A stretch of 49,476 bases of DNA from Thermoanaerobaculia bacterium (GTDB lineage: Bacteria; Acidobacteriota; Thermoanaerobaculia; Multivoradales; JAGPDF01), in assembly GCA_018057705.1 (NCBI GenBank), contig JAGPDF010000031.1, forward strand, positions 1 through 49,476. The letters run 5' to 3'. Position 1 is the first letter of the stretch; each line of letters begins with the position of its first letter. Of this stretch, positions 641 through 19,043 are shown in pieces. The position numbers and the translations under genes are program-made. The notes under the pieces were generated by a model. It saw only the letters and a program-made list of their open reading frames with translations, was not told where the DNA came from and searched no databases.

Positions 641-2272
641 TTGAGATCCTTCGCCACTCTTGCCTGTTTCGTTGTTCAGAGTCTGCTCTGGGCTGGCGCA
701 GCCCTGGCTCAGTCGATTTTCGTTGTCCAGACCTCGCCTCCAGTTGAAGGGATGGCGATCTTCATCGACGGATCGTTCGCCGGCCGGACGGATGAAGACG
801 GCCAGTTGGCGGTGTCTGGGGTCGGCATCGGCACCCACCGCGTCCGCGCCGAGGACGCGAGCGGCAGCGTCGGCGAGGGGGACTTCGACTTCGCGGATGA
901 CGTGAACCTGGTGCTGGTGCCGGTCCAGGGCGTCGGCCGCCTTGGCTCGACTCCGAAAGAGGTTCCCCGAGCGCGAAGGGAGATCGACTTCAAGATCGAC
1001 ACCAATGTGCCCCAGGCGCGCGTCCTGGTGGACGGCAGGCACGTGGGAACGACCAGTGCCCAGGACGGGAATCTCGTCCTGAGGCTGGTCGACGGCGCGA
1101 GCCTTGACATTTCGATTCAGCGCGACGGCTTCGTGGCGGAGACCCGGCGCGTGCAGGTGGCCGAGGTGCCCAACTTCGCGCAGTTTCGTCTTCGGACGAG
1201 CGGACCGGCAACACCGGCTTCCGGCCAGGAGCTCTCGAAGAAGGGGAGGAACCAGCTCCCGGCGATCTTCATAGCGCTGGTCGCGGTAGCTGTCCTCGCA
1301 GCCGCTGGCGCCCTCATCTACACGATGTGGACGAAGAGAACCGAAGTGGAGTCCGACCCGGCTTCGGAGGCGACCTCGTCGGGCACACCAGTCTCCTTCG
1401 ATCGCTATCGCGTGCAGGGAGTACTCGGACAGGGGGGCGTCGCGACGATCTATCGCGCGATCGACGCGACGGATGGGAGCGCCGTCGCGCTCAAGGTCCT
1501 CGATCCAAAGTGGATGGCAGATCCAGAGATGGTGCAGAAGTTCCTCGCAGAGGCTTCGGCCCTCGAAGCCCTCCACAGGCTCGATCAGAGCGCCCCGATC
1601 GTGCGAATGCATCGGAGTGGGCGGGAAGGCGACCGCATCAACGGCTGCCCCTTCATTGCCCTCGAACTCCTGGAGGGCGAGACAATCGAGCAGCGCCTGC
1701 GCCGCGCAGGGCCGTTCTCGGAGCTCGAGTCGGCCGGCATAGGAGCCCAGGTGGCGCGGGCTCTGTCTCTCGTCCACCGGGCTGGCATCGTGCACCGTGA
1801 CTTGACGCCCGACAATATCTTTCTCGTTCCCGGGGAGGTCCGGATCGGCAGTCGGGTGGTGCGAGGCGCACCCCGGGTGGTGGTCATCGACTTCGGCGTC
1901 GCGCGACAGGAGTTTCTCTCGCGGGTCACCATGGACGGCTCGATCGCCGGCAAGCCGCCGTATATGTCGCCAGAGCAGTGCAGTGGCGCCCGGATCGACT
2001 TTCGGAGCGATCTCTACGCGCTCGGGATCCTCTTGTACGCGATGGCCACCGGTCGCCCGCCGTTCGACGGCAAGAACCCATTCGAGGTGATGCGGGCGCA
2101 CCAGCACAGCCCGGTCCCAGCCTTGTCTGGGAACTACTCCGTCGAGCTCCGAAACCTCGTTGCCCACCTGCTCGAGAAAGACCCAACGGAGCGGCCAGGA
2201 GCAGCGGATCTGGTGGCCGCCCGGCTCGAGAGCCGGTTCGAAGAACTCTGGCGCGTCCCCGTGCCTTCATGA
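641..2272 (+). CDS. Single-span Ser/Thr protein kinase with periplasmic PEGA-like domains
   Basis: Predicted trans-envelope kinase of about 543 residues. From the TTG at 641 it begins with a typical signal peptide (charged start, hydrophobic core, ALA|Q cleavage site). A further in-frame TTG at 515 would add 42 residues lacking such features. Two PEGA-like beta domains (about 25-100 and 115-185) lie outside, then a membrane span (206-229), then a cytoplasmic Hanks-type kinase domain (about 257-535). Kinase motifs present are the GQGGVA loop, the catalytic Lys in VALKVL (about 285), HRDLTPDN (385-392) and DFG (417-419). In the catalytic loop the usual Lys after HRDL is Thr; type VI secretion PpkA-like kinases often have Ser there. 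It is followed after 30 bases by an FHA protein and then a PP2C phosphatase, a writer/reader/eraser set. Kinase assignment is firm; substrate and start codon are not. Confidence 0.85.
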   Translation: MRSFATLACFVVQSLLWAGAALAQSIFVVQTSPPVEGMAIFIDGSFAGRTDEDGQLAVSGVGIGTHRVRAEDASGSVGEGDFDFADDVNLVLVPVQGVGRLGSTPKEVPRARREIDFKIDTNVPQARVLVDGRHVGTTSAQDGNLVLRLVDGASLDISIQRDGFVAETRRVQVAEVPNFAQFRLRTSGPATPASGQELSKKGRNQLPAIFIALVAVAVLAAAGALIYTMWTKRTEVESDPASEATSSGTPVSFDRYRVQGVLGQGGVATIYRAIDATDGSAVALKVLDPKWMADPEMVQKFLAEASALEALHRLDQSAPIVRMHRSGREGDRINGCPFIALELLEGETIEQRLRRAGPFSELESAGIGAQVARALSLVHRAGIVHRDLTPDNIFLVPGEVRIGSRVVRGAPRVVVIDFGVARQEFLSRVTMDGSIAGKPPYMSPEQCSGARIDFRSDLYALGILLYAMATGRPPFDGKNPFEVMRAHQHSPVPALSGNYSVELRNLVAHLLEKDPTERPGAADLVAARLESRFEELWRVPVPS

Positions 2273-2302
2273 AGCCCAAGCGTGCCTTCCAGGGAGGATG
2301 AA

Positions 2303-3346
2303 ATGAAACGCCCAATCGTAGCCGTCTTCGCCGCAGTCCTTCTCGCCGCTTGCCTCGCTTCTGAGGGCCTGGCCCAGCTCCGGCCCAAGATTCGCGAGAT
2401 CCGCGAAGCCTCTCGCGCCTATGTCAACGAGGTCGTCGAACTCGATGGCTACGTTACCCAGCTGAGCGAGAACGAAGCGACGTCGACCCGGTTCTTCCTG
2501 CTCAAGGACGACTGGGGCGGCATCATCCGGGTGCGCACCAGTCGAGAGTATCCAGTCGTCGGTCAGCGCTACAAAGTCACTGGGGCAATTGGCGAAGATA
2601 CCCGGCTCAGGGACATCTTCCTCGCCGAAGAGAGCCGAATTTCGCTCGACGAGAGCTCCGCACTCGGTGGGCTGGCCCCTCACGGTGCAGCAGGTAGTGC
2701 TGACTCCGCCATCAGCACCAGTCCGAGCGCGGTCATCCCCGGAGAATCGGCTGTCGTGGACGAGGAGCCCGCACCGGCTCCCTGGTACGAAAGCACCCCG
2801 ATGCTGATTGCCATCGTCGTTCTCGGACTTCTCCTTGCGGGGCTGCTCTTCGCACTCGCCCTCACGCTGGGCCGCAAGAAGCAGGCTCGACCGCGTACGG
2901 GCGACTTCAACCTTGCCGCCGCCGTTCATTCCGAAGCGCTCCCGGTGCCACAGCAGGTCATCGAAGGGCGCACGATCAAGATGCATGCCCCGCCGCCGGG
3001 AACCCTCAAGCTGCTTCCCGGCTGGCTGGAGGTCACCTCGGGCGACGAGGCGGTGCGAGAAATCCGTTTCTATCGCTTGAAGGGCGACGTCCGGCCGGAG
3101 ATGACGTTTGGTCGCGCTACCGGCCGACCCTACGCTCATATTCAGCTGAAGCCGATGACCGTCTCGTCTAGGCAGGCCTCGATCTCATTCGACGGCGGAG
3201 CGCCGCAACTCATGAACCTCGCCTCTTCGGACAGCAACGCTACGCGCCTCAACGGACGCGAGCTGGGATTGAACGAAAGCGCGCCGCTAACCGAGGGCGA
3301 TCGAATCGAAATGGGCGAAGTCAAGTTCCTGTATCACGCGAACTAG
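2303..3346 (+). CDS. Membrane FHA-domain protein with periplasmic OB-like domain
   Basis: 347 residues. The ATG at 2303 is chosen over an upstream GTG (2282) because AGGGAGGA ends 4 bases before it and the protein then starts directly with a signal sequence. A lipobox-like LAAC (Cys17) competes with a signal peptidase I site near LAQ (23-25), so it may be a lipoprotein. Residues 25-115 look like an OB/BOF-type fold (VNEVVELDGYVTQ, GIIRVRTS, GQRYKVTGAI). After a low-complexity linker comes a membrane span (167-190), then an intracellular C-terminal FHA domain (265-347) with GR, SSRQAS (family usually SxRH), a conserved Asn (RLNGREL) and GDRIEMG. FHA domains bind phosphothreonine, so this is the likely reader of the adjacent kinase. 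The OB-fold call is from pattern only. Confidence 0.75.
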   Translation: MKRPIVAVFAAVLLAACLASEGLAQLRPKIREIREASRAYVNEVVELDGYVTQLSENEATSTRFFLLKDDWGGIIRVRTSREYPVVGQRYKVTGAIGEDTRLRDIFLAEESRISLDESSALGGLAPHGAAGSADSAISTSPSAVIPGESAVVDEEPAPAPWYESTPMLIAIVVLGLLLAGLLFALALTLGRKKQARPRTGDFNLAAAVHSEALPVPQQVIEGRTIKMHAPPPGTLKLLPGWLEVTSGDEAVREIRFYRLKGDVRPEMTFGRATGRPYAHIQLKPMTVSSRQASISFDGGAPQLMNLASSDSNATRLNGRELGLNESAPLTEGDRIEMGEVKFLYHAN

Positions 3347-3357
3347 GGCCCGCCTTC

Positions 3358-4908
3358 GTGCGAACACGTATTGCCGCCTTCTCGGCGCAGGGAAGGCGTA
3401 CTCGGAACGAGGACGCGGTCTTCGTGAGTCCGCTCCCGCGAAGAGGGTCGGCGCTTGCGGTGGCCGACGGCATGGGGGGGCACCGCGCCGGTGATGTCGC
3501 CAGCCGGGAGGCGACGGAGGCGTTCTCGCGCGCCGTGAAGTCGAGCCCCAAAGGGGAGACTCCCGAGGCTCGGCTCCGGCGGTCGTTTCGCGCCGCGGCA
3601 GTCGGGGTGGCCGCCGCCGCGGCGCGCGACAGCGGTAGTGGTGACATGGGAACTACGCTCGTCGCTGCGCTCTTCGATGGCGGCGAGGTCTGGGTGGCGC
3701 ATGCCGGCGACTCGCAGGCGGTGCTCGTCTGTGGCGACGAGGTGCATGTTCTGACACGCCCTCACACCCACGTCGAAGAGCAGCTCGCGCGGGGGGAGAT
3801 TTCCGAGACCCAGGCGCTGGCGAGCCCGTTTCGGCATGCAGTGGTCCGGGCTCTCGGCAAGGAACCCGTCGAGCCCGATATCGAGCGCGTCGACGAGAGC
3901 CTATGGGGTATGCCCCCAGGGGCGGTGTTGCTACTCGCGTCGGACGGCGTGATGAACCATGTTGGGCAGCCGGAGGTCATCGAGCTCTTGATGGGTGGCG
4001 CCGACCTCGACGCCGGCGTGAGGGCGATGGTCCTCCGCGCGATCGAGAACGGCAGTGACGACAATGCAACAGCCGCTGCCCTCGAGTTCGGGCGATTCCC
4101 GCGTCGCCGAGGCGCTCTCGCTGTGAGAGCGGCTGCGGTCCTCGGAGCTGTCGTTCTGGCGGTGGCCTTGGCGGCGGCCATTTTTGTCCTGCGGCGGGTC
4201 CCGGCCGGGCTATCGGCAGCGCCCTTGGGCGGAGATCGGACATCGCTTCAGGCTCAGGCAACTTCTGCGCCGGAAGCGACTACTGCGATTGGGACCGACC
4301 GACCCTCCGGTATGGGGCAGCTAGCGCTGGAACGCGAACAGTCGGAGCGCGAATTCAACGAGAAGCGAAAGAAGATCGATGCCGAGACCGCGGAGGAGGC
4401 GAGGCGCAACCAGGAGCGCTTCGCTCGAGAAGCGGCGGCGGCGAAGGCGGCTGAGGATCGAAAGGCGGAGGCGGCGAGGATCGCTGCGCTTCCGAAGCGA
4501 AAGATCCCCAGCCTGGCCGTGGCGCCGCGCGTAACGGCTATGGAGAGCCCCGGGAACGCGGCTGGGGCCAGCGTCGAGCCAGGCGCGGCAGCAATGCGAG
4601 TCCACGCGACGCGAAAGACGAAGGGCACGCTCAAGATCCTCCCGCCGAGGAGCCCCGGCGATCCGCTCGGTGGCACAGTCAGAATCAAGTTCAACGTGAG
4701 CGCCAGCGGCGAAGTCCAGGACGCGAGGATAGTGCAGTCCCCGAGCCTGAAGCCCGAGTTGCGGAAGCGCTTGGAAGGCACTGCAAAGGATCTCGCGTTC
4801 ATTCCGGCTAGCGACGTTGGCCTGGGCGACTCCGCGCACATCAAGCCGGTCCCTGTCGACGATGAGGTCACCCTCGACCTCGCCTGGGAATACTGGTCTC
4901 GCAATTGA
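3358..4908 (+). CDS. Membrane-anchored PP2C phosphatase with periplasmic coiled coil and TonB-C-like tail
   Basis: 516 residues from GTG 3358, 11 bases after the FHA gene. Residues 1-245 form a PP2C (PPM) phosphatase with the metal-binding motifs RNEDA, ADGMGGH (36-42), DMGTT, AGDS (116-119), SDG (195-197) and DDN (234-236). This family removes phosphate from Ser/Thr using two Mn/Mg ions. A membrane span (257-278) follows, then a charged coiled coil (about 322-370), then a C-terminal domain (about 410-516) resembling TonB-C: VRIKFNVSASGEV, QSPSLKPELRKRL. Topology would put the phosphatase inside and the TonB-C-like part in the periplasm, mirroring the kinase and FHA neighbours. The TonB-C likeness is moderate. 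The stop codon overlaps the next start (TTGA), so the downstream SUMF1 gene is translationally coupled. Confidence 0.85.
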   Translation: MRTRIAAFSAQGRRTRNEDAVFVSPLPRRGSALAVADGMGGHRAGDVASREATEAFSRAVKSSPKGETPEARLRRSFRAAAVGVAAAAARDSGSGDMGTTLVAALFDGGEVWVAHAGDSQAVLVCGDEVHVLTRPHTHVEEQLARGEISETQALASPFRHAVVRALGKEPVEPDIERVDESLWGMPPGAVLLLASDGVMNHVGQPEVIELLMGGADLDAGVRAMVLRAIENGSDDNATAAALEFGRFPRRRGALAVRAAAVLGAVVLAVALAAAIFVLRRVPAGLSAAPLGGDRTSLQAQATSAPEATTAIGTDRPSGMGQLALEREQSEREFNEKRKKIDAETAEEARRNQERFAREAAAAKAAEDRKAEAARIAALPKRKIPSLAVAPRVTAMESPGNAAGASVEPGAAAMRVHATRKTKGTLKILPPRSPGDPLGGTVRIKFNVSASGEVQDARIVQSPSLKPELRKRLEGTAKDLAFIPASDVGLGDSAHIKPVPVDDEVTLDLAWEYWSRN

Positions 4909-6584
4909 TCAGTCGGATACTCGTCGCCCTCGTCGGCATCGTCTTCGCGTTGGTCTCTCAAGGCCAGCCTCTCAACGCCCAAACGGTGGTCGCGGTCGCC
5001 GGTTCCACGGTCACGCTGTCCATGGGCTCCAAGCAGGGTGTCGTCATCGGGCAGACCGGCAAGCTCTGCGCCGCTGAAGAGGTCTCGGGCAAACAGTACG
5101 AGGTCTGCGCTGCGCGGTTCGAGGTTACCGCTGTCCGCGATGCGACCGCGACGGCGCAGATATCCGGCGGGAACGCGGCGATGGTCGGGAGCGGCCATCG
5201 GGCCGTCTTCAACGTACCGCTTGCCCCCCCACCTGTTCAGCCGGCCAAACCTCCTTCACAGAAGACGCAGGCAGCTGCGAGTGCCGCGGCCCCGGCACCG
5301 GGACCCATGAGTCCGCTCGCCTTGCTGGAAGCCGCCGACAGAGCTTTCGACGCCGGCCGTTTCCGCGACGCGATCGGGTTCTACGATCGCTTGCTCGTCG
5401 TTCGCCCGACCGACCGCTACGCGGCCCAGCGCCGTTCCGAAGCCCAGGCCGAGATCGAGCGCGAGTCGGCCGCCGCGCGTGATCGCGAAGAGGAGGCCAG
5501 GCGGGCGGCTGAAAGGGAGCTCACGCGACAGCGGGACGCTGAGGAACTTGCCTACCTGACTGGGGCGCTGAAGCGCGCCAAGGCATCCGGGAGCCTCGAG
5601 AGCATCCGTGACTATGCGCGGCAGATTCTAGCTTTGGATCCCCTCAATCCGGATGCCGACGGAGTTCGCTCCGGTGATCGCCAGGCTGCAGCGGTTTCAG
5701 CCAAGTCGAGTGCCGAGGCCGGTGACGTCGCGGCTTTCGATCGCGCGAGGAACGTCTACGAGAAGGAGTGGCCCGGAGACCCGCAATTCAACAAGCTCCT
5801 GGCAGAGTTGGAGAGAGGTTTCTCGGAGACACTTGGGGGACGGACAGTCTTGCCCTGGGTACATGTGCCGGCTGGGGCGTACATCATGGGTTGCGCCAGC
5901 GTGAAGAGTGCTTGTCATGGTTGCGTCGGTACGGAGAGTGAATGCCGGCCCGACGAGCAGCCCGCCCACCCGGTTACGATCTCCAACGGCTTCTACCTGT
6001 CAGCGACCGAGACAACGGTGGGTCAGTACAGAACTTTCAGCGTGGCAAAGCGAAAGCCGATGCCGCCCAAGCCCAAGTTTGGCCAGACCGACGATCACCC
6101 GGTGGTGAACATCAGCTGGTTCGAGGCCCGTGAGTATTGCGCCTGGCTCGGCGGGCGCCTTCCGACGGAGGCGGAGTGGGAGTACGCCGCGCGAGGCGGA
6201 TTGAAGACGGGGCGCTATGCATGGGGGGATTCGATTCGACGGAAAGACGCCAACTATGGGGCCGACGTTTGTTGTTCCGGGGTTGCGGCTGAGGAAGATC
6301 GCTGGACCAATACATCCCCGGTCGGGAGCTTTGGCGCGAACGGATTCGGGCTCCACGACATGGCCGGAAACGTCGGCGAATGGGTCGCCGATTGGTACGG
6401 GGACTACAGTCGGGTAGCGGAAGCGGACCCGAAGGGCCCCGCTGCGGGTACGGTGCGAGTCCTGCGAGGTGGCTCCTGGACCGATACGCCTGTGGGCCTG
6501 CGGCTCACTCAGCGAAACTGGAATGAACCAGGCAGTCGATATCTCAACAACGGCTTTCGCTGCGCTCGGGGAGAGGCCCCGTGA
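4905..6584 (+). CDS. Exported protein: array module + TPR/coiled coil + SUMF1 (FGE-like) domain, copy 1
   Basis: 559 residues from TTG 4905, which overlaps the phosphatase stop. A signal peptide ends near NAQ (about 26). The shared array module follows (about 26-105: VAVAGSTVTLSMGSKQGV, KLCAAEEVSGK, AARFEVTAV). Next come a Pro/Ala linker, TPR-like helices with a charged coiled coil, and a SUMF1/formylglycine-generating-enzyme-type domain (about 318-556). Signatures are HVPAGAYIMG, ETTVGQY, HPVVNISWFEAREYCAWL, RLPTEAEWEYAARGG, GLHDMAGNVGEWV, VLRGGSW and GFRCA. The pair of catalytic cysteines of true formylglycine-generating enzymes is not visible between GGSW and GFRCA. An adhesive, lectin-like or other non-FGE role is therefore more likely than sulfatase maturation. 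An extra Cys-rich insertion lies just after the domain start. Function in this context is unknown. Confidence 0.75.
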   Translation: MISRILVALVGIVFALVSQGQPLNAQTVVAVAGSTVTLSMGSKQGVVIGQTGKLCAAEEVSGKQYEVCAARFEVTAVRDATATAQISGGNAAMVGSGHRAVFNVPLAPPPVQPAKPPSQKTQAAASAAAPAPGPMSPLALLEAADRAFDAGRFRDAIGFYDRLLVVRPTDRYAAQRRSEAQAEIERESAAARDREEEARRAAERELTRQRDAEELAYLTGALKRAKASGSLESIRDYARQILALDPLNPDADGVRSGDRQAAAVSAKSSAEAGDVAAFDRARNVYEKEWPGDPQFNKLLAELERGFSETLGGRTVLPWVHVPAGAYIMGCASVKSACHGCVGTESECRPDEQPAHPVTISNGFYLSATETTVGQYRTFSVAKRKPMPPKPKFGQTDDHPVVNISWFEAREYCAWLGGRLPTEAEWEYAARGGLKTGRYAWGDSIRRKDANYGADVCCSGVAAEEDRWTNTSPVGSFGANGFGLHDMAGNVGEWVADWYGDYSRVAEADPKGPAAGTVRVLRGGSWTDTPVGLRLTQRNWNEPGSRYLNNGFRCARGEAP

Positions 6585-8047
6585 TGACTCTTGGCGCGAG
6601 GCAAGGTTGGATGGCGATCGGCATCGTCCTGGCGTTCGCGCCTTGTCCTGCAGGCGCTCAGACGGTGACGTCGATCGCCGGCTCGACGGTGACGATCTCC
6701 GCTGGCACGAAGCAGGGGGTCGCGAAGGGGATGACCGGCAAGTTGTGCGTGGACGAGATGGTCTCTGGCCAGAAGATGCCGGTGTGCGCGGCGACATTCG
6801 AGGTGGTCTCGGTAGCCGAGGGGAGCGCCACGGCGCGGATCACCGGGGGAGAAACTGCGGCGGTGACGGTTGGCCATCGAGTGACCTTAGAGCAGCCCCT
6901 AGATCCGGCAGCCGCGACCGCGGCGCCGGCCGCGAGGTTTGCCGCCGCGCCGGTGCCTTCGAAAGCCGCAACTGCGGAGGAGCTTCTCGCTGCGGGCAAT
7001 CGCCTCTACGACGGGAAGGACTGGTCTGGCGCCGCGACGAGGTTTCGCGAGCTCGAGCGTCGCTTTCCGCAACATGCGGAGGCCGGCTACGCTGCGAAGC
7101 TCGCAGCGACCTGCGAGGAACGCGCCGCGGTAGTGCGCGCGGAAACGGAACAGGCAGCGCGCTCCGCGATCGCCAGCGCGGGCGCGGCGGAGATCGTCGC
7201 CAAAGCGCGCCGTCTCCTCGACGCCGGCCTCTGGGCGGAGGCGAAGTCCGAAGCTGAACGGGCCCTCGCCCTCGATCCTGCGAGCCGCGAGGCGACGGTA
7301 CTGCGAGCCGAGGCGGAAAGTCACCTCGGCCCGCCGAAAGAGATTCAGGATAGGAGGACTGGCATTCGCTGGAAGCTGATTCCAGCGGGAGCGTTCACGA
7401 TTGGCTGTACAGCGGGAGACCCGGACTGCTACCCGGACGAGATCCCTGCGCACGCAGTGACAATCTCTCGGCCCTATTACCTGGCGGCAAGTGAAACGAC
7501 GGTTGGCCAGTACCGCCGTTTCGCGAACTCGGTGAGTGGGGTCACACCCACCCCGCCTGGGTTTTCTCAAGGCGAGGATCACCCTGTGGTGAAAGTGACG
7601 TGGGGCGACGCCGAGGCATTCTGCGGCTGGGCAGGGGGCCGCCTACCGACGGAGGCGGAGTGGGAATACGCGGCGCGCGCCGGCCGTTCGGACGGACGCT
7701 ACCCGTGGGGGAATCAGATATCGCACGAGAGTGCCAACTACGCTGGCACCGAAGGGCGAGACTCCTGGGCATACACCTCACCGGTGCAAGGCTTCGCTCC
7801 GAACGGCTACGGGCTCCACGATATGGCGGGGAATGCCTGGGAGTGGGTGCAGGACGGGTACGGCAGCTACTGGAGCGGCGCAGCAACGGATCCGACAGGG
7901 CCTTCTTCCTCCTCCAAGCGTGTCTTGCGGGGCGGCTCCTGGAGCCATCAATCGAGGTGGTTGCGCGTCTCGAACCGCCACAGCTACTTGTCGGGCGATC
8001 GAAACGACAACATCGGGTTTCGATGTGCGAAGACTGAAATTCCTTGA
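6584..8047 (+). CDS. Exported protein: array module + TPR-like repeats + SUMF1 domain, copy 2
   Basis: 487 residues. The ATG at 6584 shares its first base with the preceding stop (TGATG) and follows GGGAGAGG; a GTG at 6581 is possible. The order is a signal peptide ending PAGAQ, the array module (VTSIAGSTVTISAG, KQGVAKGMTGKL, VSGQKMPVCAATFEV, ARITGG), an Ala/Pro linker, a TPR-like helical block (AEELLAAGNRLYDGKDW) shared with the genes at 8476 and 10380, and a SUMF1 domain from about residue 260 (LIPAGAFTIGC, ETTVGQYRRF, RLPTEAEWEYAARAG, GLHDMAGNAWEWV, VLRGGSW, GFRCA). As in copy 1, the FGE catalytic cysteines are missing. The near-identical modules in neighbours point to recent tandem duplication. 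It is probably co-transcribed with 641-6584. Confidence 0.75.
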   Translation: MTLGARQGWMAIGIVLAFAPCPAGAQTVTSIAGSTVTISAGTKQGVAKGMTGKLCVDEMVSGQKMPVCAATFEVVSVAEGSATARITGGETAAVTVGHRVTLEQPLDPAAATAAPAARFAAAPVPSKAATAEELLAAGNRLYDGKDWSGAATRFRELERRFPQHAEAGYAAKLAATCEERAAVVRAETEQAARSAIASAGAAEIVAKARRLLDAGLWAEAKSEAERALALDPASREATVLRAEAESHLGPPKEIQDRRTGIRWKLIPAGAFTIGCTAGDPDCYPDEIPAHAVTISRPYYLAASETTVGQYRRFANSVSGVTPTPPGFSQGEDHPVVKVTWGDAEAFCGWAGGRLPTEAEWEYAARAGRSDGRYPWGNQISHESANYAGTEGRDSWAYTSPVQGFAPNGYGLHDMAGNAWEWVQDGYGSYWSGAATDPTGPSSSSKRVLRGGSWSHQSRWLRVSNRHSYLSGDRNDNIGFRCAKTEIP

Positions 8048-8081
8048 ACCTATGGACTCTTGAACGACTTGGAGGAATTGA

Positions 8082-8440
8082 ATGAAGCGTAAGGCTGTGG
8101 AGGCGAAACACATTTGGATTGGACTCGGGTTCTCTGGATAGTGATTGGGCTAGCCTGGTTGCTGATCCCACGGGCGGGCGCGGCGCAAAGCGTGACTTCG
8201 ATCTCGGGTTCGACGGTGACGATCTCCGCCGGCGCGAAGGCGGGTGTCGCGAAGGGGATGAGCGGCAATTCGTGCGTAGACGAGACGGTCTCCGGCCAGA
8301 TGATGCCGGTCTGTGCGGCGACGTTTGAAGTGGTCTCTGTGGCGGAGGGGAGCTCCACGGCGCGACTCGACCTGCAGATCGAGGTCAGAACCGCGAAGTC
8401 CTGCTGTGCTCCGGTGATAGAGAAGGTAACTGTCCAGTGA
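8082..8440 (+). pseudogene. Array paralogue shortened by internal deletion, with frameshifted signal peptide
   Basis: The only well-placed start is ATG 8082 behind GGAGGA, but that frame stops at 8141 after 19 codons. The homologous frame opens at TTG 8114 and encodes a hydrophobic signal segment and the array module (VTSISGSTVTISAGAKAGV...VVSVAEGSSTAR). At about 8365 the module jumps to a tail ending RTAKSCCAPVIEKVTVQ. That tail matches the end of the next gene (RTAKFMGSPVIESVAIE), so the linker, TPR block and most of the C-terminal domain are missing. The simplest history is a gene like 8476-9639 that suffered an internal deletion and a frameshift in the signal peptide. If the TTG at 8114 is used, a 108-residue mini-protein could still be made and exported, so loss of function is not certain. 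Confidence 0.65.
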
Positions 8441-8475
8441 TCAGGCGGCGATCCCCCAGAGGAAGGAGAAGTAGA

Positions 8476-9639
8476 GTGGTCCAGCCGAGTTGGATGCTGA
8501 CTGGCAAGAGCCTCGGCGCGATCTTGCTTGGAGTCCTCGTCGGAAGTAGCAGCTTCGGCCCCCAGTCTGCCTCTGCGCAGACGGTGACATCGATTTCGGA
8601 TTCCACGGCGAGGATCTCGGCAGGGTCCAGGCAGGGCGTTGCTAAAGGTATGACCGGCAAGCTCTGCGTAGACGAAGTGGTTTCGGGCCAGAGTTTGGAA
8701 GTGTGCGCAGCGACCTTCGAGGTGGTTTCGGTTGCCGATGTGAGCGCGACGGCGAAAATCACTGGCGGTGAGGCGCGGGCGGTTACGGTGGGTCACCTCG
8801 CCAGATTCGCTCAGCCGTTGAAGCCGGTGGAATCGGCGAGAGCGCCGGTCGCGAAGCTAGCCGCTGACTTGCCGTTAGCACCTCCAAAGAGTCCCGCCGC
8901 GGAGGAACTCCTCGCCCGTGGCAATCGGCTCTTCGACGTGAAGGATTGGAAAGGCGCGGCAATCGCTTTCGGCGACTTCGTTGCGCAATTTCCGGGCCAC
9001 GTCGACGTCGACTATGCTCGCAAGCTCCTTTCAGCTTGCGCGGAGCGCGAATTGGCCACTGCCGGCGAGGTCGCCGAAGCCAAACGGAAAGCAGCGGATG
9101 CCGCAAAGGCGGCCGACCTCATCGCTCGCGCGGAACGGCTGCTGGTTGCGGAAAAATGGGCGGAAACCAAAGCGCTCGCGGAGGAAGCAATTGCTCTTGA
9201 CCCTTCCCAAGAAAGGGCCCGCTCGTTGATGGCACTCGCCGAGCGGCAGCTCTCTGTTCCAGAGCGCACTGCGCCGGAGGTGGCGGTGCAACTGGTGATT
9301 TCCGCAGAAATGAGGAAGGCTGGCATGCCGAACCCGGATTCTCACTGGAAGTGTGCAGTCTTCGACGGCGCCGGAAACAACCTCTGCGAGACCGATGACC
9401 TCTACCTGAGCGGCGAGGACCGCGTCCACGCCAGTGGTACCTGTCCGATTGCTGCAAGGCGTATCGATTCACATCTCCTATGTGTGCAGTTTCAACCTGG
9501 CTACGGGCAGGTAGCGGCATCGAGGAGTTTTCCATTGGTTCTCGAAGGTAACCGATTCCCTCGAGTAGAGGTCAACGTGAAGTTCAGGACCGCGAAGTTC
9601 ATGGGTAGCCCGGTCATTGAATCGGTGGCCATCGAGTAG
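8476..9639 (+). CDS. Exported array paralogue with unknown C-terminal domain
   Basis: 387 residues. GTG 8476 is preferred because AAGGAG lies 7 bases upstream; an in-frame GTG at 8437 overlaps the preceding stop but adds an Arg-rich stretch ahead of the signal peptide. Signal peptide cleavage is expected at SASAQ. The array module follows, then a linker, then the shared TPR-like block (AEELLARGNRLFDVKDWKG). A C-terminal domain of about 120 residues is rich in beta-prone segments and has four Cys (SHWKCAVFDGAGNNLC, GTCPIAARR, HLLCVQF) that could form periplasmic disulfides. I do not recognise this domain. It is the intact counterpart of the shortened copy just upstream. Confidence 0.7.
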   Translation: MVQPSWMLTGKSLGAILLGVLVGSSSFGPQSASAQTVTSISDSTARISAGSRQGVAKGMTGKLCVDEVVSGQSLEVCAATFEVVSVADVSATAKITGGEARAVTVGHLARFAQPLKPVESARAPVAKLAADLPLAPPKSPAAEELLARGNRLFDVKDWKGAAIAFGDFVAQFPGHVDVDYARKLLSACAERELATAGEVAEAKRKAADAAKAADLIARAERLLVAEKWAETKALAEEAIALDPSQERARSLMALAERQLSVPERTAPEVAVQLVISAEMRKAGMPNPDSHWKCAVFDGAGNNLCETDDLYLSGEDRVHASGTCPIAARRIDSHLLCVQFQPGYGQVAASRSFPLVLEGNRFPRVEVNVKFRTAKFMGSPVIESVAIE

Positions 9640-10379: not shown

Positions 10380-11540
10380 GTGAAGCTTTCGATCGACGAA
10401 TCGCCCCGACCGATGCGCCGCCAGCTCTGCGCTCTGCTGGCCGGCCTCGCCGTCCATTTCGCGCCTACACTGGTGTCAGCGCAGAGCGTGACCGCCATCT
10501 CGGGTTCGACGGTGACGCTCTCCGCCGGCGCGAAGCAGGGTGTCGCAAAGGGGATGACCGGGGTTCTCTACGTCGTCGACGACGTGGCCGGTCAGAAGAT
10601 GGAGGTCAAGGCAGCGCGTTTCGAAGTGACGGCCGTCGCGGACGGGAGCACCGCGGCGCGGATCACGGCTGGCGACGCGGGCGCGGTCTCCGTTGGGCAT
10701 CGGGCGCGGTTCGACCAGCCGCTCCAGCCGCCGGCGGCGACGACGGCCGCTCCGGCTGCGAAGCCCGCCCCGCCCGCGCAGGCGCGCGCCGCGACCGCAG
10801 AAGAACTCCTTGCAGCCGGCAATCGCCTCTACGACGCGCAGGACTGCGCGGGAGCCGCGGCGAAGTTCCGCGAGCTCGAGAATCGCTTCCCGCAGCATTC
10901 CGAGGCCGGCTATGCTGCGAAACTCGCCGCGACCTGCGAACAGCGTGCTGCCGCCGCCCACGCCGAAACAGAGAGAGCCGTCCGCGCCGCCACCGCCAGC
11001 GCCGGCGCGGACGAGATCGCAAATAGGTCGCGCCTCCTCCTCGGAGCCGGCCAGCTGGACGAAGCGGGAAGCGAGGCGAGACGCGCGCTCGACCTGGATC
11101 CCAAGAATGAAGTTGCAGTGGCTGTTCAACGTGAACTGAAGCAGTTCGAGTTTGGATATGTGGTTGTTTGTCAACCTCCGCTAGGGGTGACCACCAGCTG
11201 CGAGGCGTACGTAGATGGCGAGAGGATAGCTAATTTTGGGGGCAATAATTACGGAACTCATGTGACGTCGAAACAGTGTCACTGGTCAAAGGTGAAGCCC
11301 GGGCAGCATGACGTGGTGTTGCGCTGTGAGGACAAGAACTTCTTCGGCAAGCCGGAGTCGAACCTGCACGCAATCGTAACCAACGGGGGCTCGGTAGTTG
11401 TAGATTTCGGAGTCTGGGCTGACTTCAAACTCAAGATGCGGGCATGGATGGTTGAAGAGCGCGATTTCAAGGAATTTCTTCGTGGCGTGGAGGGCCTTCC
11501 TGGCGATGTTCTCAGAGGAATTGCCACTTCCAGCCAATGA
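10380..11540 (+). CDS. Exported array paralogue with PEGA-like C-terminal domain
   Basis: 386 residues from GTG 10380, preceded by AAAGGAGA at a good distance. A signal peptide ends VSAQ (about 35). It carries the array module (VTAISGSTVTLSAGAKQGVAKG, AARFEVTAVADGS), an Ala/Pro linker, the shared TPR-like block (AEELLAAGNRLYDAQDCAG...FRELENRFPQHSEAGYAAK) and a C-terminal segment (about 255-355). In that segment CEAYVDGERIANFGGN, VKPGQHDVVLRCEDKN and GGSVVVDFGVW follow the rhythm of PEGA or carboxypeptidase-regulatory-like beta sandwiches. In this copy the module's usual two Cys are lost (VLYVVDD instead of KLCVDE, VKAARFEV instead of VCAATFEV). It is the last gene of the plus-strand arm and faces the caspase operon. 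Confidence 0.7.
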   Translation: MKLSIDESPRPMRRQLCALLAGLAVHFAPTLVSAQSVTAISGSTVTLSAGAKQGVAKGMTGVLYVVDDVAGQKMEVKAARFEVTAVADGSTAARITAGDAGAVSVGHRARFDQPLQPPAATTAAPAAKPAPPAQARAATAEELLAAGNRLYDAQDCAGAAAKFRELENRFPQHSEAGYAAKLAATCEQRAAAAHAETERAVRAATASAGADEIANRSRLLLGAGQLDEAGSEARRALDLDPKNEVAVAVQRELKQFEFGYVVVCQPPLGVTTSCEAYVDGERIANFGGNNYGTHVTSKQCHWSKVKPGQHDVVLRCEDKNFFGKPESNLHAIVTNGGSVVVDFGVWADFKLKMRAWMVEERDFKEFLRGVEGLPGDVLRGIATSSQ

Positions 11541-11556
11541 CGCGGCGAATTGTGGC

Positions 11557-11752
11557 AAGTGCCGTACTTCGGCTACGACCGGCACCGGATTAGAGCGCTT
11601 CGGTGGGGGTCTTGCGCTCCTCGAGGGGGACCTGGATGGGGCGGAGGGGCGGCGCTGGGGAGCAGGAGATTGAGCGGACGTCCGTAAATGATGATGGCGT
11701 GCCAAGAGGTCCGGGTGCCTCTCTCGAGCTAGGCGACAAGGGGGAAAGCACC
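11557..11752 (-). pseudogene. Remnant of a second caspase-like gene (C-terminal end)
   Basis: Read on the minus strand, this stretch encodes LERGTRTSWHAIIIYGRPLN, which aligns with LESGTRTSWRALILQGSPLN near the C-terminus of the caspase-like protein at 12385-13587. After a frameshift it continues as PIQVPLEERKTPTEA (against PTQLTLEERLYTPDM), and after another as PVPVVAEV (against FVPVRVVEE). Differences between the two DNA copies fall mostly on third codon positions, so both evolved as proteins before this one broke. A stop lies just before LERGT. No caspase catalytic region could be found further upstream (11753-12384). Confidence 0.6.
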
Positions 11753-12384: not shown

Positions 12385-13587
12385 TCAGTGCGCGGCTGCT
12401 GACTCTTCGACGACTCTGACAGGAACGAAGCTGGTCATGTCGGGGGTGTAGAGGCGCTCTTCTAGGGTGAGTTGGGTGGGGCGGGAGGGGAGGCGTTGGA
12501 GGGGGAGGAGGTTCAGGGGGCTTCCCTGGAGGATCAGGGCGCGCCAGGAGGTGCGGGTGCCGCTTTCGAGGGTGGCGGTAAAGGAGACGTAGCCCTTCCC
12601 TGGCGGCAGTCCTTCCGGGCGGATGGCGGCGCGGACGAGGAACTGATTGCCTTCGGGCTCCACCTTGAAGGTGACGTGGAGCGTACCCATGGCTTCGACG
12701 GACTTTGCCCGCGCACCGAAGATGTCGACTTCGGGGACCAGCGAGAGGGCGATAGGAGCGCTCGCCGAACCGGTGCGGATGAGCCAGGGCTGCTGCACTC
12801 TCCCGGCGGTCCGGCCCCATTCGAAAAGCCGGCGCTCGGTGTAGAGCGCCGCCTCGTCGAGAGAGATCCGGCCGTCGTGGTCACGGTCGACTCCGGCGGC
12901 GCCACCGAGCGCTTCGATCAGGTAGTGGGTGAACACCCCGCGGCGGAACTCGTCCGACTCGAAGCTCTCCTGCCCGAGGCGGGAGGAGGACAGAACCGCC
13001 GTTCCGGTAGCTCCCGACTCCAGAGCGTCGGCAAGTGTGTAACTCATTGCCCCGCTGGGCCCGCCTTTGGACATACCGCTGTGGCAGGCGTCCAGCACGA
13101 GCATCCGCGTCTTCACCGGCAGGCTCCGCAGAAGACGGAAGAGCTCGGGGACCGGGAGACCGGTAGTCTCGACCTGCTCGACGGTCGTCTCGTTCAATAC
13201 GAGTACCGGACCTGCGGCAGTTTCGACTCCGTGAGAAGAGACGAAGACGAAGAGGGTGTCCGAGAGGCCGACCTGAGTTCGCAGAAGCTCAATCTCCTCC
13301 TTCACGCGGGCCGCGGTGGCTTGGACACCGGCGTTTCCTGCCAGGAGCCGGATGCGCTCGGGGGCGTATCCCCCGTGTGGACTGGATAGCAGTGCCTCGG
13401 CCAGAGCGCCAGCGTCGCTGGCCGCAAAGCGGAGCGGCAGGATGCTCGAATCCCGATAGTCGGAGACTCCAACGAGCAGTGCCCACCGCTTCGCTGGCTC
13501 CTCCGCAGCAGGTGCAGTGGTTGCGCTGGCAAGGGCGAGGAGCAGAAGCGCACCGAGCGTGAGGCTCGGGTTCCGGCAGGAGAGCAT
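12385..13587 (-). CDS. Exported caspase-like (peptidase C14) protein
   Basis: 400 residues. A signal peptide ends near APAAE (about 28). The caspase/metacaspase p20-like domain follows (35-225): WALLVGVSDY opening strand, catalytic His119 in VSSHGVET, catalytic Cys168 in VLDACHSG, then VLSSSRLGQESFES and GVFTHYLIEAL. A perfect EF-hand-type loop, DRDHDGRISLDE (234-245), suggests Ca2+ binding, which activates several metacaspases. The last ~110 residues are beta-rich and unassigned; this part is duplicated as a remnant at 11557-11752. The family cleaves after Arg/Lys or Asp, but specificity cannot be read here. It is the last gene of a minus-strand operon, 8 bases after the propeller gene's stop. 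Export makes a periplasmic or extracellular role likely, unlike typical cytoplasmic bacterial caspases. Confidence 0.85.
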   Translation of the reverse strand: MLSCRNPSLTLGALLLLALASATTAPAAEEPAKRWALLVGVSDYRDSSILPLRFAASDAGALAEALLSSPHGGYAPERIRLLAGNAGVQATAARVKEEIELLRTQVGLSDTLFVFVSSHGVETAAGPVLVLNETTVEQVETTGLPVPELFRLLRSLPVKTRMLVLDACHSGMSKGGPSGAMSYTLADALESGATGTAVLSSSRLGQESFESDEFRRGVFTHYLIEALGGAAGVDRDHDGRISLDEAALYTERRLFEWGRTAGRVQQPWLIRTGSASAPIALSLVPEVDIFGARAKSVEAMGTLHVTFKVEPEGNQFLVRAAIRPEGLPPGKGYVSFTATLESGTRTSWRALILQGSPLNLLPLQRLPSRPTQLTLEERLYTPDMTSFVPVRVVEESAAAH

Positions 13588-13595
13588 TCGAAACC

Positions 13596-15704
13596 TCAGC
13601 CCCCGGTTGTCAGGACGGCGAAGTCGGCGAGCGTCTGGGACGAGAACCCGGCTACCGCATGGGCCCGAAGCGAGGTCCTCTTCTCCGAGGGTCGTTGATA
13701 GACGAGGCTGAACGCGACGTCGGCCTCGATCCGTCCTTGACTCGGCAACCGCATCTCATCGAGCAGTTCGCCGGTACGAAGGTCGACGCGCTGAATCGCG
13801 TGGCCCTTGCCATCTCCCGTCTGGACGATGTCGACCCGAACGAACGGGTCTATCAGGCGCTGCCGGGCCTGATAGCGGTCGAGCGCCCGTTTGCCGTAGT
13901 TCTGTGGGAGGCCCGAGGCGATCGCTTCCGGAGTGCGTGCCGAATCGGCCAGGAGTGCAAGTCCAGCCACGATGGCGACACTGCCGCCCACCAGCAGAAT
14001 GTCCTGGGCAATCTTGGATCCGACTTCGCCCGCACCGACAGCGAGAACGAGTCCTCCGATTGCCATTGCGATTGCGATCTTGCGCTGCTTCTTTTTGAGC
14101 TCCGCCGCAAGCTCGAGGTCCTCCGGGTAGACCGGGGGGCGCGGCTTGGCGCGGCTCCAGACACGTTCGAGACCACTGCCGGTCAGCGAGTAGGCCACGT
14201 CCTCGTCATCGGATTCGATGAGCACGCGGTCCTCGTCCAACCAGCGAACCCGGTGGTTCCGGTCGACGGAAGCGAAAGTGGGTTTGCCCTTGTCTGTTCG
14301 CTCCTGGGGGTAGCGCGCGATCTCCAGCCCGGTGGACGTATCGATCACCACCATTCGCACGAACGCCGGATTTCCCCATTGATAGAGAGTGCCGATCGCG
14401 CGGGTGCCGGCGGGGGAGCCGATGATGTAGCCCGGCATTCCCCGCTCGTCGATCTTGTGCGCCCAGAGCGGCTGGCCGCTCACCAGGTCGAGGCAGCCAA
14501 ATCCATCGTCTGCGGCGAGATAGACCTTGTTATCCGAAACGGCGAGGTTGTTGACGTCGTCCAGCTTGCCGGGCGTCTTGCCCTTCCAGAGTGGGTTCTT
14601 TTTGAGATCTTTCTTCGTGGCGGCGCGCAGGTCGAAAGCCTTCAGATCGTCGTCTTCGGCGAGAACCAGGACGTGCTCCTCAATGCCGATGTGCTTGTCT
14701 TCGACGCTGTACTCCCAGAGGTCTGCGCCGCTGAACAGGTCGAGAGCGTGCACGTCTTCAACCTCTTGTTCGATGATTCGCCCTTCGTGAAGGTAGTACT
14801 TGATGTTCTGAGGGTCGTTGATCTCGCGGCGCCATCGTGTCTCACCGGTCAGCAGATCGAGGAGGTAGGCACCGCCGCTGGGCTTCGAGAGCTCGTCTGC
14901 GGCGTAACCTCCGAAGGGGACGAAGGACTTGAGCAGGGATGCGCCAATGGACTTGCCGATCGTCTTGCTGACGGAGATCGGGTCGATCGTCTTGAGAAAG
15001 AGAGAGTGCTTGTCGTAGATCGGGAGAACCAGCAGGGGGTCCTCGATGATGGCGCCGGCATTCCTCCAAATAACTTCACCGGTAAACTGATCGATCGCCA
15101 TGGTCAGGCCGACCTTCTTCTCTTCCCCTTTGGCAGGCGGAGCGCCGGGGTTCTGGACGCCAAGGAAGACAATGATGCTGGTCTGGACGACCTCCAGGAG
15201 GGAGTCTAGCTCCGCGACGATGGGAAGTTCCCAGATCCGCTCGCCAGATCCGCCTTCCATGCCGACGACTCGCGACGAGAGGCCGACCACGACAACGCCG
15301 AGGCTCGTGCTGTGGAACCAACGGACCTCTTCGCCGAAGTCCTGTTCCCACACCTGTTGCCCGGCTTCGATCGCGGGCGGAACTACGGGAAGCTCGACCT
15401 CGGTGGCCTCGAGAGTGGCGGGCGGAATGTCGATCGGCGTGCCGAGAACGCTCTCGGCGCCCGCCGCGGAAGGATCCGGCAGGCTCTTGGCCGCAGGGTC
15501 TGTGGCTGCCGCTTCGGAGGGCACCTCCGGGGAGGGTGCGCTTGGCGGATCCTGGGCAGCCAGGCCAGGAGGAAGCGTTAGTGCCATAGCCACGAGAGCG
15601 AGATGAGCACCCAGGCGGGTGAACGGTCCGAACGAGCTCTTCCGCCATGAACCGAGCCAATCACGAGTAGCGGGTCCGGCCAGGAGTTGCCGATGAGCGT
15701 TCAT
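13596..15704 (-). CDS. Membrane protein with PQQ-type beta-propeller repeats
   Basis: 702 residues. An N-terminal hydrophobic segment (ALVAMALTLPPGLAAQ, about 35-50) acts as signal peptide or anchor. A Pro/Ala/Glu-rich linker follows, then PQQ/Trp-docking-like propeller blades in 115-480: WEQDFGEEVRW, DQFTGEVIWRN, LLTGETRWRREIN, LFSGADLWEYSV, LVSGQPLWAHKI. About residues 550-605 hold two hydrophobic helices (AIGGLVLAVGAGEVG; VGGSVAIVAGLALLA) and a short region follows with one more blade-like motif (VDLRTGELLDEMRL). Such propellers are mostly protein-interaction scaffolds (as in BamB) rather than enzymes. The operon order OmpA-like protein, propeller, caspase suggests an envelope complex. A soluble quinoprotein dehydrogenase is unlikely because its catalytic residues are not apparent. 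Confidence 0.7.
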   Translation of the reverse strand: MNAHRQLLAGPATRDWLGSWRKSSFGPFTRLGAHLALVAMALTLPPGLAAQDPPSAPSPEVPSEAAATDPAAKSLPDPSAAGAESVLGTPIDIPPATLEATEVELPVVPPAIEAGQQVWEQDFGEEVRWFHSTSLGVVVVGLSSRVVGMEGGSGERIWELPIVAELDSLLEVVQTSIIVFLGVQNPGAPPAKGEEKKVGLTMAIDQFTGEVIWRNAGAIIEDPLLVLPIYDKHSLFLKTIDPISVSKTIGKSIGASLLKSFVPFGGYAADELSKPSGGAYLLDLLTGETRWRREINDPQNIKYYLHEGRIIEQEVEDVHALDLFSGADLWEYSVEDKHIGIEEHVLVLAEDDDLKAFDLRAATKKDLKKNPLWKGKTPGKLDDVNNLAVSDNKVYLAADDGFGCLDLVSGQPLWAHKIDERGMPGYIIGSPAGTRAIGTLYQWGNPAFVRMVVIDTSTGLEIARYPQERTDKGKPTFASVDRNHRVRWLDEDRVLIESDDEDVAYSLTGSGLERVWSRAKPRPPVYPEDLELAAELKKKQRKIAIAMAIGGLVLAVGAGEVGSKIAQDILLVGGSVAIVAGLALLADSARTPEAIASGLPQNYGKRALDRYQARQRLIDPFVRVDIVQTGDGKGHAIQRVDLRTGELLDEMRLPSQGRIEADVAFSLVYQRPSEKRTSLRAHAVAGFSSQTLADFAVLTTGG

Positions 15705-15739
15705 GGAAGGCTCCCAGAAGCAGCAATAAATGATGCGAG

Positions 15740-16675
15740 TTAGTCGTAGGGACGGAGGATCGTGACCCGCCGGCTCTTTTCCCGGTTCTCTACACCCCTG
15801 TTGAGTACCGGTACCTCAGAGCCTCGGCCGGTCGGCTCGAGAGCGACGCTGACCTTTGCCTTCTGAAGGAAGGCGAGTACCGCGGCGGCTCGGGCGCGAG
15901 AAAGAGCTACGTTGTGAGGCTGAGAACCCTCGCTGCTCGAGTGCCCCTCGATGATGTAGCGCTCACCGCTCGAAGCCCGGCGAAGCGCTTTCGCGAGCTG
16001 ATCGAGCTGGCTGGTCGACAGGGGCAATAGCTTGTCGGAGTCGACATCGAACAGGACGGTCAGGTTGATTCCGAAGCCTTTCGCGCCCACGAAGTTCTCA
16101 TCGGTCGGCTTGCCGGCGAGGGCCTTGGGTCGAACGGACTTGCTGCCAATCTGGAGCTGCGAGGTGATCTCTTCGTCCGATTTGAAGGCGAACTGCGTCG
16201 CGCCGTCGGTTTCCCGGACGGTCTGGGGAGCGAACTGCGCCTCGATCACCTTCTGGTCTTCTGGGCTCTCCGCGAGGACCAGAGCCGACTGAAGGTAGAT
16301 CTCGGCGCCCTCGGCGTCGCCCTCCGCACGCGCGACTCTTGCCAGGCCGATCAGCGGCTGCGGATCGCCAGCGCGCAGCGCCAAAGCTGTCCGATAGGAC
16401 AACGAGGCGGGCTCGAGCTGGCCGAGCCGCTCCTGGGCTTCCCCGAGAGCAAGATGGGCGGCGGGGCTGCGAGCGCAGTTCAGGACCAGACTGCGCGCGC
16501 GAGCCTCATGGTCGGTCGGAGCTAGAGCTCGTAGGTCCCAGGCTGCGGCTGCGATGGCGGCCTCGCCGCAGTCGAGCGGCGCATCTGCTCGAGCCTGGAG
16601 CGCCCCGACGGAAAGCGTCAGGAAAGGCACAACGAGAGCAGCGCTGGTCAAGTCGGTTCTTGAGAATCGCGGCAT
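15740..16675 (-). CDS. Exported TPR protein with C-terminal OmpA-like peptidoglycan-binding domain
   Basis: 311 residues from the ATG at 16675, where a signal peptide begins (MPRFSRTDL..., cleavage near ARA|D). The frame stays open to 16999, but that extension has no signal features. Residues 35-160 contain TPR-like helices (AAHLALGEAQERLGQ, SYRTALALRAGDPQPL). The last ~115 residues form an OmpA/MotB domain: LFDVDSDKLLP, IIEGHSSSEGS, NVALSRARAAAVLAFL, GRGSEVP, EKSRRVTI. This domain binds diaminopimelate of peptidoglycan non-covalently. It is the first gene of the operon with the propeller and caspase-like genes (35-base gap to the propeller) and probably tethers their complex to the cell wall. 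Confidence 0.8.
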   Translation of the reverse strand: MPRFSRTDLTSAALVVPFLTLSVGALQARADAPLDCGEAAIAAAAWDLRALAPTDHEARARSLVLNCARSPAAHLALGEAQERLGQLEPASLSYRTALALRAGDPQPLIGLARVARAEGDAEGAEIYLQSALVLAESPEDQKVIEAQFAPQTVRETDGATQFAFKSDEEITSQLQIGSKSVRPKALAGKPTDENFVGAKGFGINLTVLFDVDSDKLLPLSTSQLDQLAKALRRASSGERYIIEGHSSSEGSQPHNVALSRARAAAVLAFLQKAKVSVALEPTGRGSEVPVLNRGVENREKSRRVTILRPYD

Positions 16676-17089
16676 GAAGCGGACAAAAGCAAGCACCGCG
16701 CCAGGAGAGTTGGGCTGCCTCTTTCCACCTTCCGGAGATCGAGGCGGTGGCCGTGCTTGCCCCAGGGAATCGAGTACTCGCAAGGTCTCGCGGTTCGGGT
16801 TTTCGGGTTTCGGGCACCAGGGCATCGAGCCGCGGGGGACTCGCTGCTCGGGAGCGCTTAGCGAGTGCGCGCCGACTGCCAAGTAGATGCGCGCGGAGTG
16901 AAGGTAGTGAGCGGCGCCCCATCGGCAGTTTCCAGTTGTTGCGCACCACTCATGGATGGTCGCCGTCTTGCAGCCCGGAGATCGGGAGGGGTCAGGCATG
17001 GCTTCGAATCTCCAGGCTGGAAAGCCGAAGGTCGAGATCGCCAGAGCTAGCCATCGATCGCGTCGAACAGAGCTGAGAGGGGGATCGCA
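16676..17089. other. Divergent intergenic region
   Basis: About 410 bases between the OmpA-TPR operon and the lipoprotein gene. It must contain both promoters. I could not identify convincing -35/-10 boxes, operators or a gene. Confidence 0.4.
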
Positions 17090-17899: not shown

Positions 17900-18047
17900 G
17901 CCTGAGACCTCGCGGTCGACCCCCGGCGCGCTCAGGTCATGGCGCAGGAATGGACGCCCGTCTTTGGTCTCGGGTTTGCCATGGAGAGTCGGAACCTGTT
18001 GGTGCGGGTAGCTCGCGCGCGGCTCAGGCAAAACAAAAGGAGGCAGT

Positions 18048-19043
18048 ATGGCGCGGTCGTTCGTTGCGAAGCTAGCACTCGGAGCGGTGCTGTCGACCCT
18101 CGCGGCACAGCCACTCCGAAGTGATGTCTTCAAGGATCTGCTCAAGGGCCTTGAGAACTCCGCCAAACAGGAGCTGCAGCGTCAGGTCGAGGCCGTGCGC
18201 ACCGAGGCGGCGACGAGCGCTCAGGTCGCTTCGTTCGACTACACCCTGCGACCCTCGCTCCTGGTTCGCACTTCGGACGGGAGGAGGTTTCAGCTGCGCG
18301 CCCTGAACTTCGCTGCGAGCAGAGACTTGACCAGTCCGCTCGCCATGGCGACCCGGGCGGACTTTCGCTATCTCGGCGGCCAGACCTACGATGTCTCCTT
18401 CGCCTTGCGCTCGATCCAGCCTGTCTCGGGCAGCTTCGTGGCTGGAGTTCTCGCAGGAGCGGCGAACGACTACGCCGAGAAGAACCTCTCGCGGGTGCGC
18501 TCCGACATTTCGGCCCTTCTCGGGCGCGCCCTGGACGGCAGCGACTGGGTTTTGCCGCTCGACAACTGCCGTATCGACTCGATAGAAGTGCTCGAAGGGG
18601 AAACGACGCCTCCGCCCGCGATGGAGGTGGCCAAGGCCGAAGCACCTACCAGCCACAGCGAGGAGGCCCCCCCAGCGCCGCGCCAGGCTCCGACTCCTGC
18701 TGCGCCTCCGGCACCGACGCCTGGGCCTCCTCCAGCCGTCGACGAAGTGCCCCGGCCTGCAGCCCACGTTGACCCCGCACCTACGCAAGTTGCAGCTCCT
18801 CCCCCCGTTCTGCTCCCCCGCGCGCGGCTGCGAAGCGTGGACGGGAGTTTCGCCACCTGCAACGTCGACCCGGGCTTCGACCTGAAATCTGGCATGACGG
18901 TCGTCGTGATCCGAGGTGGAACCCGGGTGGGGAAGGCGATTGTCATCGATCGACGAACCGGGGAGGCAGATCTCGAGATCACCGAGAGCTTCGCAGGGCG
19001 GGACCCTCAGGTCGGAGATCTCATTCGAGTCGAGGGGCGGTGA
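18048..19043 (+). CDS. Exported protein with Pro-rich linker and C-terminal FlgT-C/MreC-like module
   Basis: 331 residues; start fixed by AAAGGAGG seven bases before ATG 18048. A signal-like N-terminus (cleavage near PLRSD) is followed by an amphipathic helix and a beta-rich domain (about 50-185: SLLVRTSDGRRFQLRALNF, GGQTYDVSFALRSI). A Pro/Ala-rich linker of about 65 residues comes next. The final domain (about 250-331: RLRSVDGSFATCNVDPGFD, LKSGMTVVVIRGG, RVGKAIV, VGDLIRVEG) has the G-x-V-G-M-x-V pattern of FlgT-C/MreC-type beta barrels. Its spacing resembles the array module of the genes at 4905-11540, so the two may be related. Function unknown; context suggests it belongs to the same envelope system. 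Confidence 0.65.
   Translation: MARSFVAKLALGAVLSTLAAQPLRSDVFKDLLKGLENSAKQELQRQVEAVRTEAATSAQVASFDYTLRPSLLVRTSDGRRFQLRALNFAASRDLTSPLAMATRADFRYLGGQTYDVSFALRSIQPVSGSFVAGVLAGAANDYAEKNLSRVRSDISALLGRALDGSDWVLPLDNCRIDSIEVLEGETTPPPAMEVAKAEAPTSHSEEAPPAPRQAPTPAAPPAPTPGPPPAVDEVPRPAAHVDPAPTQVAAPPPVLLPRARLRSVDGSFATCNVDPGFDLKSGMTVVVIRGGTRVGKAIVIDRRTGEADLEITESFAGRDPQVGDLIRVEGR

Follow-up and report, generated by a model that had tools for sequence, protein, structure and literature searches.

What might a membrane Ser/Thr kinase, an FHA protein and a PP2C phosphatase do together, when they are encoded in a row and followed by a family of exported proteins? This question is raised by a contig of a Thermoanaerobaculia bacterium, of which a stretch of 49,476 nucleotides (hereafter the window) was analysed.

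The kinase, FHA and PP2C genes

Pfam matches at positions 641-4908 of the window identify a Ser/Thr kinase (PF00069, E=4e-39), an FHA protein (PF00498, E=8e-8) and a PP2C phosphatase (PP2C_2, PF13672, E=7e-18), tightly packed on one strand, and thus bear out the gene trio of the original prediction. The gaps between the first five genes (641-8047) measure 9, 11, -4 and -4 bases, which marks these genes as a single operon. The trio consists of:

641..2272, + strand: membrane Ser/Thr kinase, with a signal peptide, periplasmic PEGA/carboxypeptidase-regulatory-like domains, one transmembrane (TM) segment and a C-terminal cytoplasmic kinase domain
2282..3346, + strand: membrane FHA protein, with a signal peptide, a periplasmic OB-like domain, one TM segment and a C-terminal cytoplasmic FHA domain
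3358..4908, + strand: membrane PP2C phosphatase, with a cytoplasmic PP2C domain, one TM segment and a periplasmic tail with a TonB-C-like domain at its end

Both enzymes have intact catalytic motifs, as the Lys, HRD, DFG and SPEQ motifs are all found in the kinase, and NED, DGMGG, GDS, SDG and DNxT in the phosphatase. The start of the kinase is ambiguous (TTG at 515 or TTG at 641). Its layout is inverted relative to PknB-type kinases, with the kinase domain C-terminal of the TM segment; a Pfam scan found no PASTA domain in it, and it scores 210 bits against NF033483, where the cut-off is 450. As such, it shows neither of the two features of PASTA/PknB-type kinases, a PASTA domain and a kinase domain N-terminal of the TM segment. 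In the FHA domain, G277, R278, S295 and N319 are kept and a Gln replaces the His of SxxH; these are the positions at which FHA domains usually contact phosphothreonine. The signal peptide of the FHA protein includes a possible lipobox, LAAC, and the protein had no match in a plasmid collection.

Besides signal peptides, hydropathy reveals a single hydrophobic segment in each of the three proteins: residues 250-268 of the kinase (numbered from 515), 174-192 of the FHA protein and 260-278 of the phosphatase. Flanking K/R counts place the FHA domain inside (0 outside, 5 inside), and likewise the PP2C domain (5 versus 2), whereas they are ambiguous for the window kinase (3 versus 2) and clear for its orthologue (2 versus 5). 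Therefore, all three proteins are predicted to cross the membrane once with their signalling domain inside, in agreement with what had been proposed from the sequence, the topology being derived solely from hydropathy and K/R flank counts. Each protein had also been assigned a different sensor-like domain in the periplasm. For the PEGA domain of the kinase (22.9 bits, Pfam cut-off 20.8) and the TonB C-terminal domain of the phosphatase tail (27.1 bits, reaching the NCBIfam cut-off) this assignment stands; the OB-like domain of the FHA protein is plausible but unproven, since it rests on a five-strand pattern in an AlphaFold model with a pLDDT of about 57-77.

Exported proteins with FlgT-like and FGE-type domains

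Exported proteins continue downstream on the same strand as the trio, and a further one is found at the far end of the region:

4905..6584, + strand: exported protein with a FlgT-like module, a TPR/coiled region and an FGE-sulfatase-fold domain in which the catalytic Cys pair is missing
6581..8047, + strand: exported protein of the same three-part architecture, 44% identical to 4905-6584
8114..8440, + strand: internally deleted copy of the module family, in which the module (8186-8368) is fused to a tail resembling the one in 8437-9639
8437..9639, + strand: exported protein with a FlgT-like module, a TPR region and a C-terminal domain without assignment
9876..10019, + strand: degenerate module copy with an in-frame TAG, a pseudogene fragment
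10380..11540, + strand: exported protein with a FlgT-like module, a TPR region and a C-terminal region that is PEGA-like by eye alone
18048..19043, + strand: exported protein whose C-terminus weakly resembles that of the gene just upstream of the kinase in L046, a related locus described below (27.5% over 69 aa, E=2e-5)

The family of exported modular proteins that had been noted is thus real and comprises four intact genes and two degenerate copies. Common to the four is a 76-residue N-terminal module, with 55-58% identity to the first, which had no sequence match in the PDB. Its AlphaFold model (pLDDT about 75-90) has a weak structural match to FlgT (Foldseek, 3w1e, E=2.5e-4). No Pfam match to PEGA was found in the C-terminal region of 10380-11540, whose PEGA-like nature we infer.

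Two of the four proteins end in an FGE-sulfatase-fold domain (Pfam, E=1e-58 and 4e-56). Compared with C336/C341 of human FGE, neither domain has a Cys between RGGSW and GFRCA, so that, judged by sequence, these domains more probably bind or scaffold than catalyse formylglycine formation. Their fold is like that of PorK/GldK, but the score against the NCBIfam GldK model, 115 bits, is well short of the cut-off of 350. Among the five FGE matches in the whole 5.1 Mb genome, two lie inside the trio operon.

Several pairs of module copies in 8114-10380 are 70-85% identical in DNA over their 5' part, and at about 12132-12251 lies a sequence similar to the terminal part of an FGE gene. With the two decayed module copies (8186-8368 and 9876-10019) and this FGE-tail remnant, the array is a tandem family that has both expanded and partly decayed. 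The exported family extends beyond the trio, given that a full module-TPR-FGE protein is encoded in another genome (G084, L018 12105-13814; FGE part 54% identical to that of 6581-8047) with no trio genes detected by tblastn within the surrounding 18 kb.

Occurrence in other genomes

Named relatives place the host in the class Thermoanaerobaculia of the phylum Acidobacteriota. The FHA subfamily is rare: of 149 Thermoanaerobaculia genomes 4 have it, as do 2 of 396 drawn across the phylum, with one further member on a Gemmatimonadota contig (L047). In all four class genomes that have it, the FHA gene is directly followed by the PP2C gene. A check for co-occurrence had been proposed along with the original prediction, and its outcome is positive, as is best seen in L046, from Thermoanaerobaculia bacterium Chersky.15_12 (genome G458), where a kinase, an FHA protein, a PP2C phosphatase and a module protein follow one another in the same order as in the window. 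Identity to the window is 42.5% for the kinase (over 534 aligned columns, including the PEGA part), 46% for the FHA protein and 43% for the PP2C domain. In L046, the contig ends within the module protein, ahead of the point at which an FGE domain might be seen. Contig C344 of the same genome, which starts with half an FGE domain, was considered as its continuation and rejected, the gene being EgtB-like and followed by a superoxide-dismutase-like gene.

In G080 (locus L034), the adjacent FHA and PP2C genes are followed by two secreted proteins and, about 2 kb on, by a kinase of the inverted layout; this genome also encodes an exported TPR-FGE protein, one of its two FGE matches, about 7.5 kb from the kinase. 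G490 (L049) likewise has adjacent FHA and PP2C genes, and its neighbouring kinase has ordinary topology and lies on the opposite strand. Similar-looking, possibly kinase-like proteins are encoded upstream of the pair in both genomes (L034 7210-8010 and L049 5837-6760). In a tree of 21 kinase domains, the inverted kinases of the window, L046, L061 and L034 group together (support 94/92; 92% of bootstrap trees), a grouping to be read with the caveat that the G080 kinase forms a long branch. A kinase orthologue in G476 lies on a 5.6 kb contig without FHA or PP2C genes, and the Gemmatimonadota contig encodes a short TM-FHA protein followed by an ordinary kinase, with no PP2C.

An OB-TM-FHA-like protein beside a kinase in G118 (L035) was rejected as a member of the same system, because its FHA domain belongs to another subfamily and its kinase has ordinary topology; only the architecture is similar. 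At L035 6844-9266, which comes from an acidobacterial family outside the class, two exported OB-like proteins lie beside the kinase, and one of the two is the OB-TM-FHA protein. BLAST matches among the Pro/Ala-rich periplasmic tails were mostly lost after composition correction, which left a domain common to the two G080 secreted proteins and one short PP2C-tail match.

Known systems and the possible role of the island

So what could such a set of proteins do? In Pseudomonas, TagQ and the periplasmic activator TagR act upstream of PpkA, which phosphorylates Fha1, and PppA reverses this (PMC6657622, PMC10482370). The annotation of TagR1 (PA0071) names an FGE-sulfatase domain (PMC7253367, PMC13411936). 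As with the TagQRST-PpkA-Fha1-PppA genes of P. aeruginosa, a membrane kinase, an FHA protein, a PP2C phosphatase and an exported FGE-domain protein are encoded together in the window. Given that annotation of TagR, exported FGE proteins beside the trio are the arrangement expected of a TagR-type input, and that two exported partners have this fold is a concrete argument for their feeding into the kinase. This link between FGE and TagR was absent from the earlier reading and is added here. The likeness to TagR consists of an FGE domain and predicted export, and since the FGE fold also occurs in EgtB, PvdO and PorK/GldK, which have unrelated roles, the fold alone does not mean TagR.

There are clear differences from the P. 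aeruginosa pathway. VipB/TssC, the core marker and sheath gene of the type VI secretion system (T6SS), had no match in the window genome (96% complete; the E. coli control was positive), so that the trio is probably not a T6SS regulator, and the operon is without a TagST-like ABC transporter. Moreover, the window kinase is inverted, with its periplasmic domain N-terminal, whereas that of PpkA is C-terminal. A C-terminal periplasmic domain is also described for Serratia PpkA (PMC6082577). The FHA and PP2C proteins of the window are predicted to span the membrane, unlike Fha1 and PppA, which have been described as proteins of the cytoplasm (PMC10482370). The RtkS-PpkA-Fha-PppA pathway of S. marcescens differs in being T6SS-bound, and for RtkS no FGE or FlgT-like domain is reported.

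Kinase, PP2C and FHA genes are also clustered in the actinobacterial PknA/PknB-PstP-FhaA/FhaB systems. Of these proteins, PstP spans the membrane, and FhaA and FhaB are not known to be of the kind that joins a periplasmic domain, a TM segment and an FHA domain. The actinobacterial cluster has PASTA where the window has PEGA and is without FGE partners, and the window is without the RodA/PBP genes. The extracytoplasmic domain of the actinobacterial kinase is thought to sense the envelope (PMC3989709). An FHA domain fused to a TM segment and a periplasmic part is known from the inner-membrane proteins of type III secretion (YscD/CdsD-type), against whose model, PF16697, the window FHA protein scores 16 bits (cut-off 33.2). 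The chain order is opposite, however, with the FHA domain C-terminal in the window protein and the domain order of YscD the reverse. A limited literature search found no paper on a system of this kind in Acidobacteriota, which does not by itself prove novelty.

With moderate confidence, we therefore propose a relay of threonine phosphorylation at the inner membrane that is independent of T6SS and arranged in the manner of TagR-PpkA-Fha-PppA; by analogy, the island may work as that pathway does, but outside the T6SS. The original prediction of a distinct membrane-spanning kinase/FHA/PP2C system is supported by its conservation with an exported partner in L046, and by the lack of VipB in the window genome. 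In such a relay, the exported FlgT-module/TPR/FGE proteins would be periplasmic ligands or scaffolds comparable to TagR, those of FGE type acting on the PEGA domains of the kinase. The kinase would autophosphorylate and phosphorylate partners, and the membrane FHA protein would bind the phosphothreonine product and might use its TM segment and OB-like domain to hold an envelope assembly or send it a signal, with the membrane PP2C resetting phosphorylation. The output would be an envelope process, and the neighbouring caspase is probably not the target. We offer as a tentative and less likely extension that writer, reader and eraser are all single-pass proteins with different periplasmic domains, that periplasmic TagR-like proteins and cytoplasmic phosphorylation are thereby coupled in both directions across the membrane, that the machine controlled is a non-T6SS envelope machine, and that the exported partners diversified through tandem duplication. 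If the relay proposed here exists, the logic of TagR-PpkA-Fha-PppA would reach beyond T6SS and offer a more general route by which envelope events are passed into, or out of, threonine phosphorylation.

The relay could also run inside-out, cytoplasmic phosphorylation being the input, and the periplasmic domains of FHA and PP2C together with the exported proteins the output, for instance in assembling or anchoring an envelope complex. A reader that crosses the membrane is unusual and makes this a testable claim; the L046 orthologue retains its OB-like region, and the exported partners combine TPR with FlgT-like and FGE folds, of which the last two resemble FlgT of the flagellar H-ring and PorK/GldK of the T9SS ring, both used in periplasmic rings. 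However, the kinase also has periplasmic domains, the usual place for an input, and in G080 and G490 the FHA proteins have no OB-like domain. This direction of signalling is rather unlikely. It is more doubtful still that these are lineage-specific genes of kinase signalling that happen to be neighbours and belong to no common pathway. The genome is rich in kinases (78 Pkinase matches) and the distribution is rare and patchy, so an incidental arrangement is conceivable, but order and composition are kept in L046 at 42-46% identity, and the operon is tightly spaced.

A T6SS regulatory module, with its T6SS elsewhere or lost, is a very improbable reading and for the window genome largely refuted. 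Although VipB genes are present in two carriers of the FHA-PP2C pair, G080 and G490, they lie on contigs other than that of the pair, and VipB was not found in G458 (87% complete), G084 or G118, in addition to the window genome. Furthermore, the FHA protein scores 16.1 bits against the TagH model TIGR03354 (cut-off 120.25) and thus falls outside the TagH/Fha family.

The OmpA, propeller and caspase genes that had been noted beside the trio are indeed there (Pfam), in an operon (12385-16999) on the opposite strand and convergent with it:

12385..13587, - strand: exported caspase-like protease carrying the dyad motifs SSHG and DACHSG, a neighbour without demonstrated link to the trio
13596..15704, - strand: PQQ/BamB-like propeller protein whose two hydrophobic segments are located toward the C-terminus, a neighbour only
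15740..16999, - strand: exported protein with TPR and OmpA domains, its listed start probably too far upstream, a neighbour only

The peptidase matches Pfam C14 (E=7e-12) and keeps its His-Cys dyad (SSHG at 117, DACHSG at 166). That the trio would regulate this exported caspase through the operon, as had been suggested, is scarcely credible and the coupling was rejected: adjacency and a low G+C of both halves (0.644 and 0.643, against 0.695 in the rest of the window) might point to joint arrival, but the operon is convergent, it is not beside the trio genes in the sequenced flanks of L046, L034 and L049, and neither propeller (E<=1e-12) nor caspase (E<=1e-25) has a homologue in the 148 other class genomes, which include three carriers of the FHA-PP2C pair, two of these being only 87% complete.

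That the two halves agree in their low G+C suggests, at most, that they were acquired as one island. Over 515-19043, G+C is 0.64 against 0.695 downstream, and third-position G+C is lower in most genes, which makes this segment a candidate acquired island. Adjoining it is an FHA-containing sigma-54 activator (19235-21529, - strand), and further along the same strand are two more Ser/Thr kinases with TPR domains (22195-24843 and 27307-30147) and a row of CotH kinase, DUF4956 and VTC-domain genes (34782-38215).
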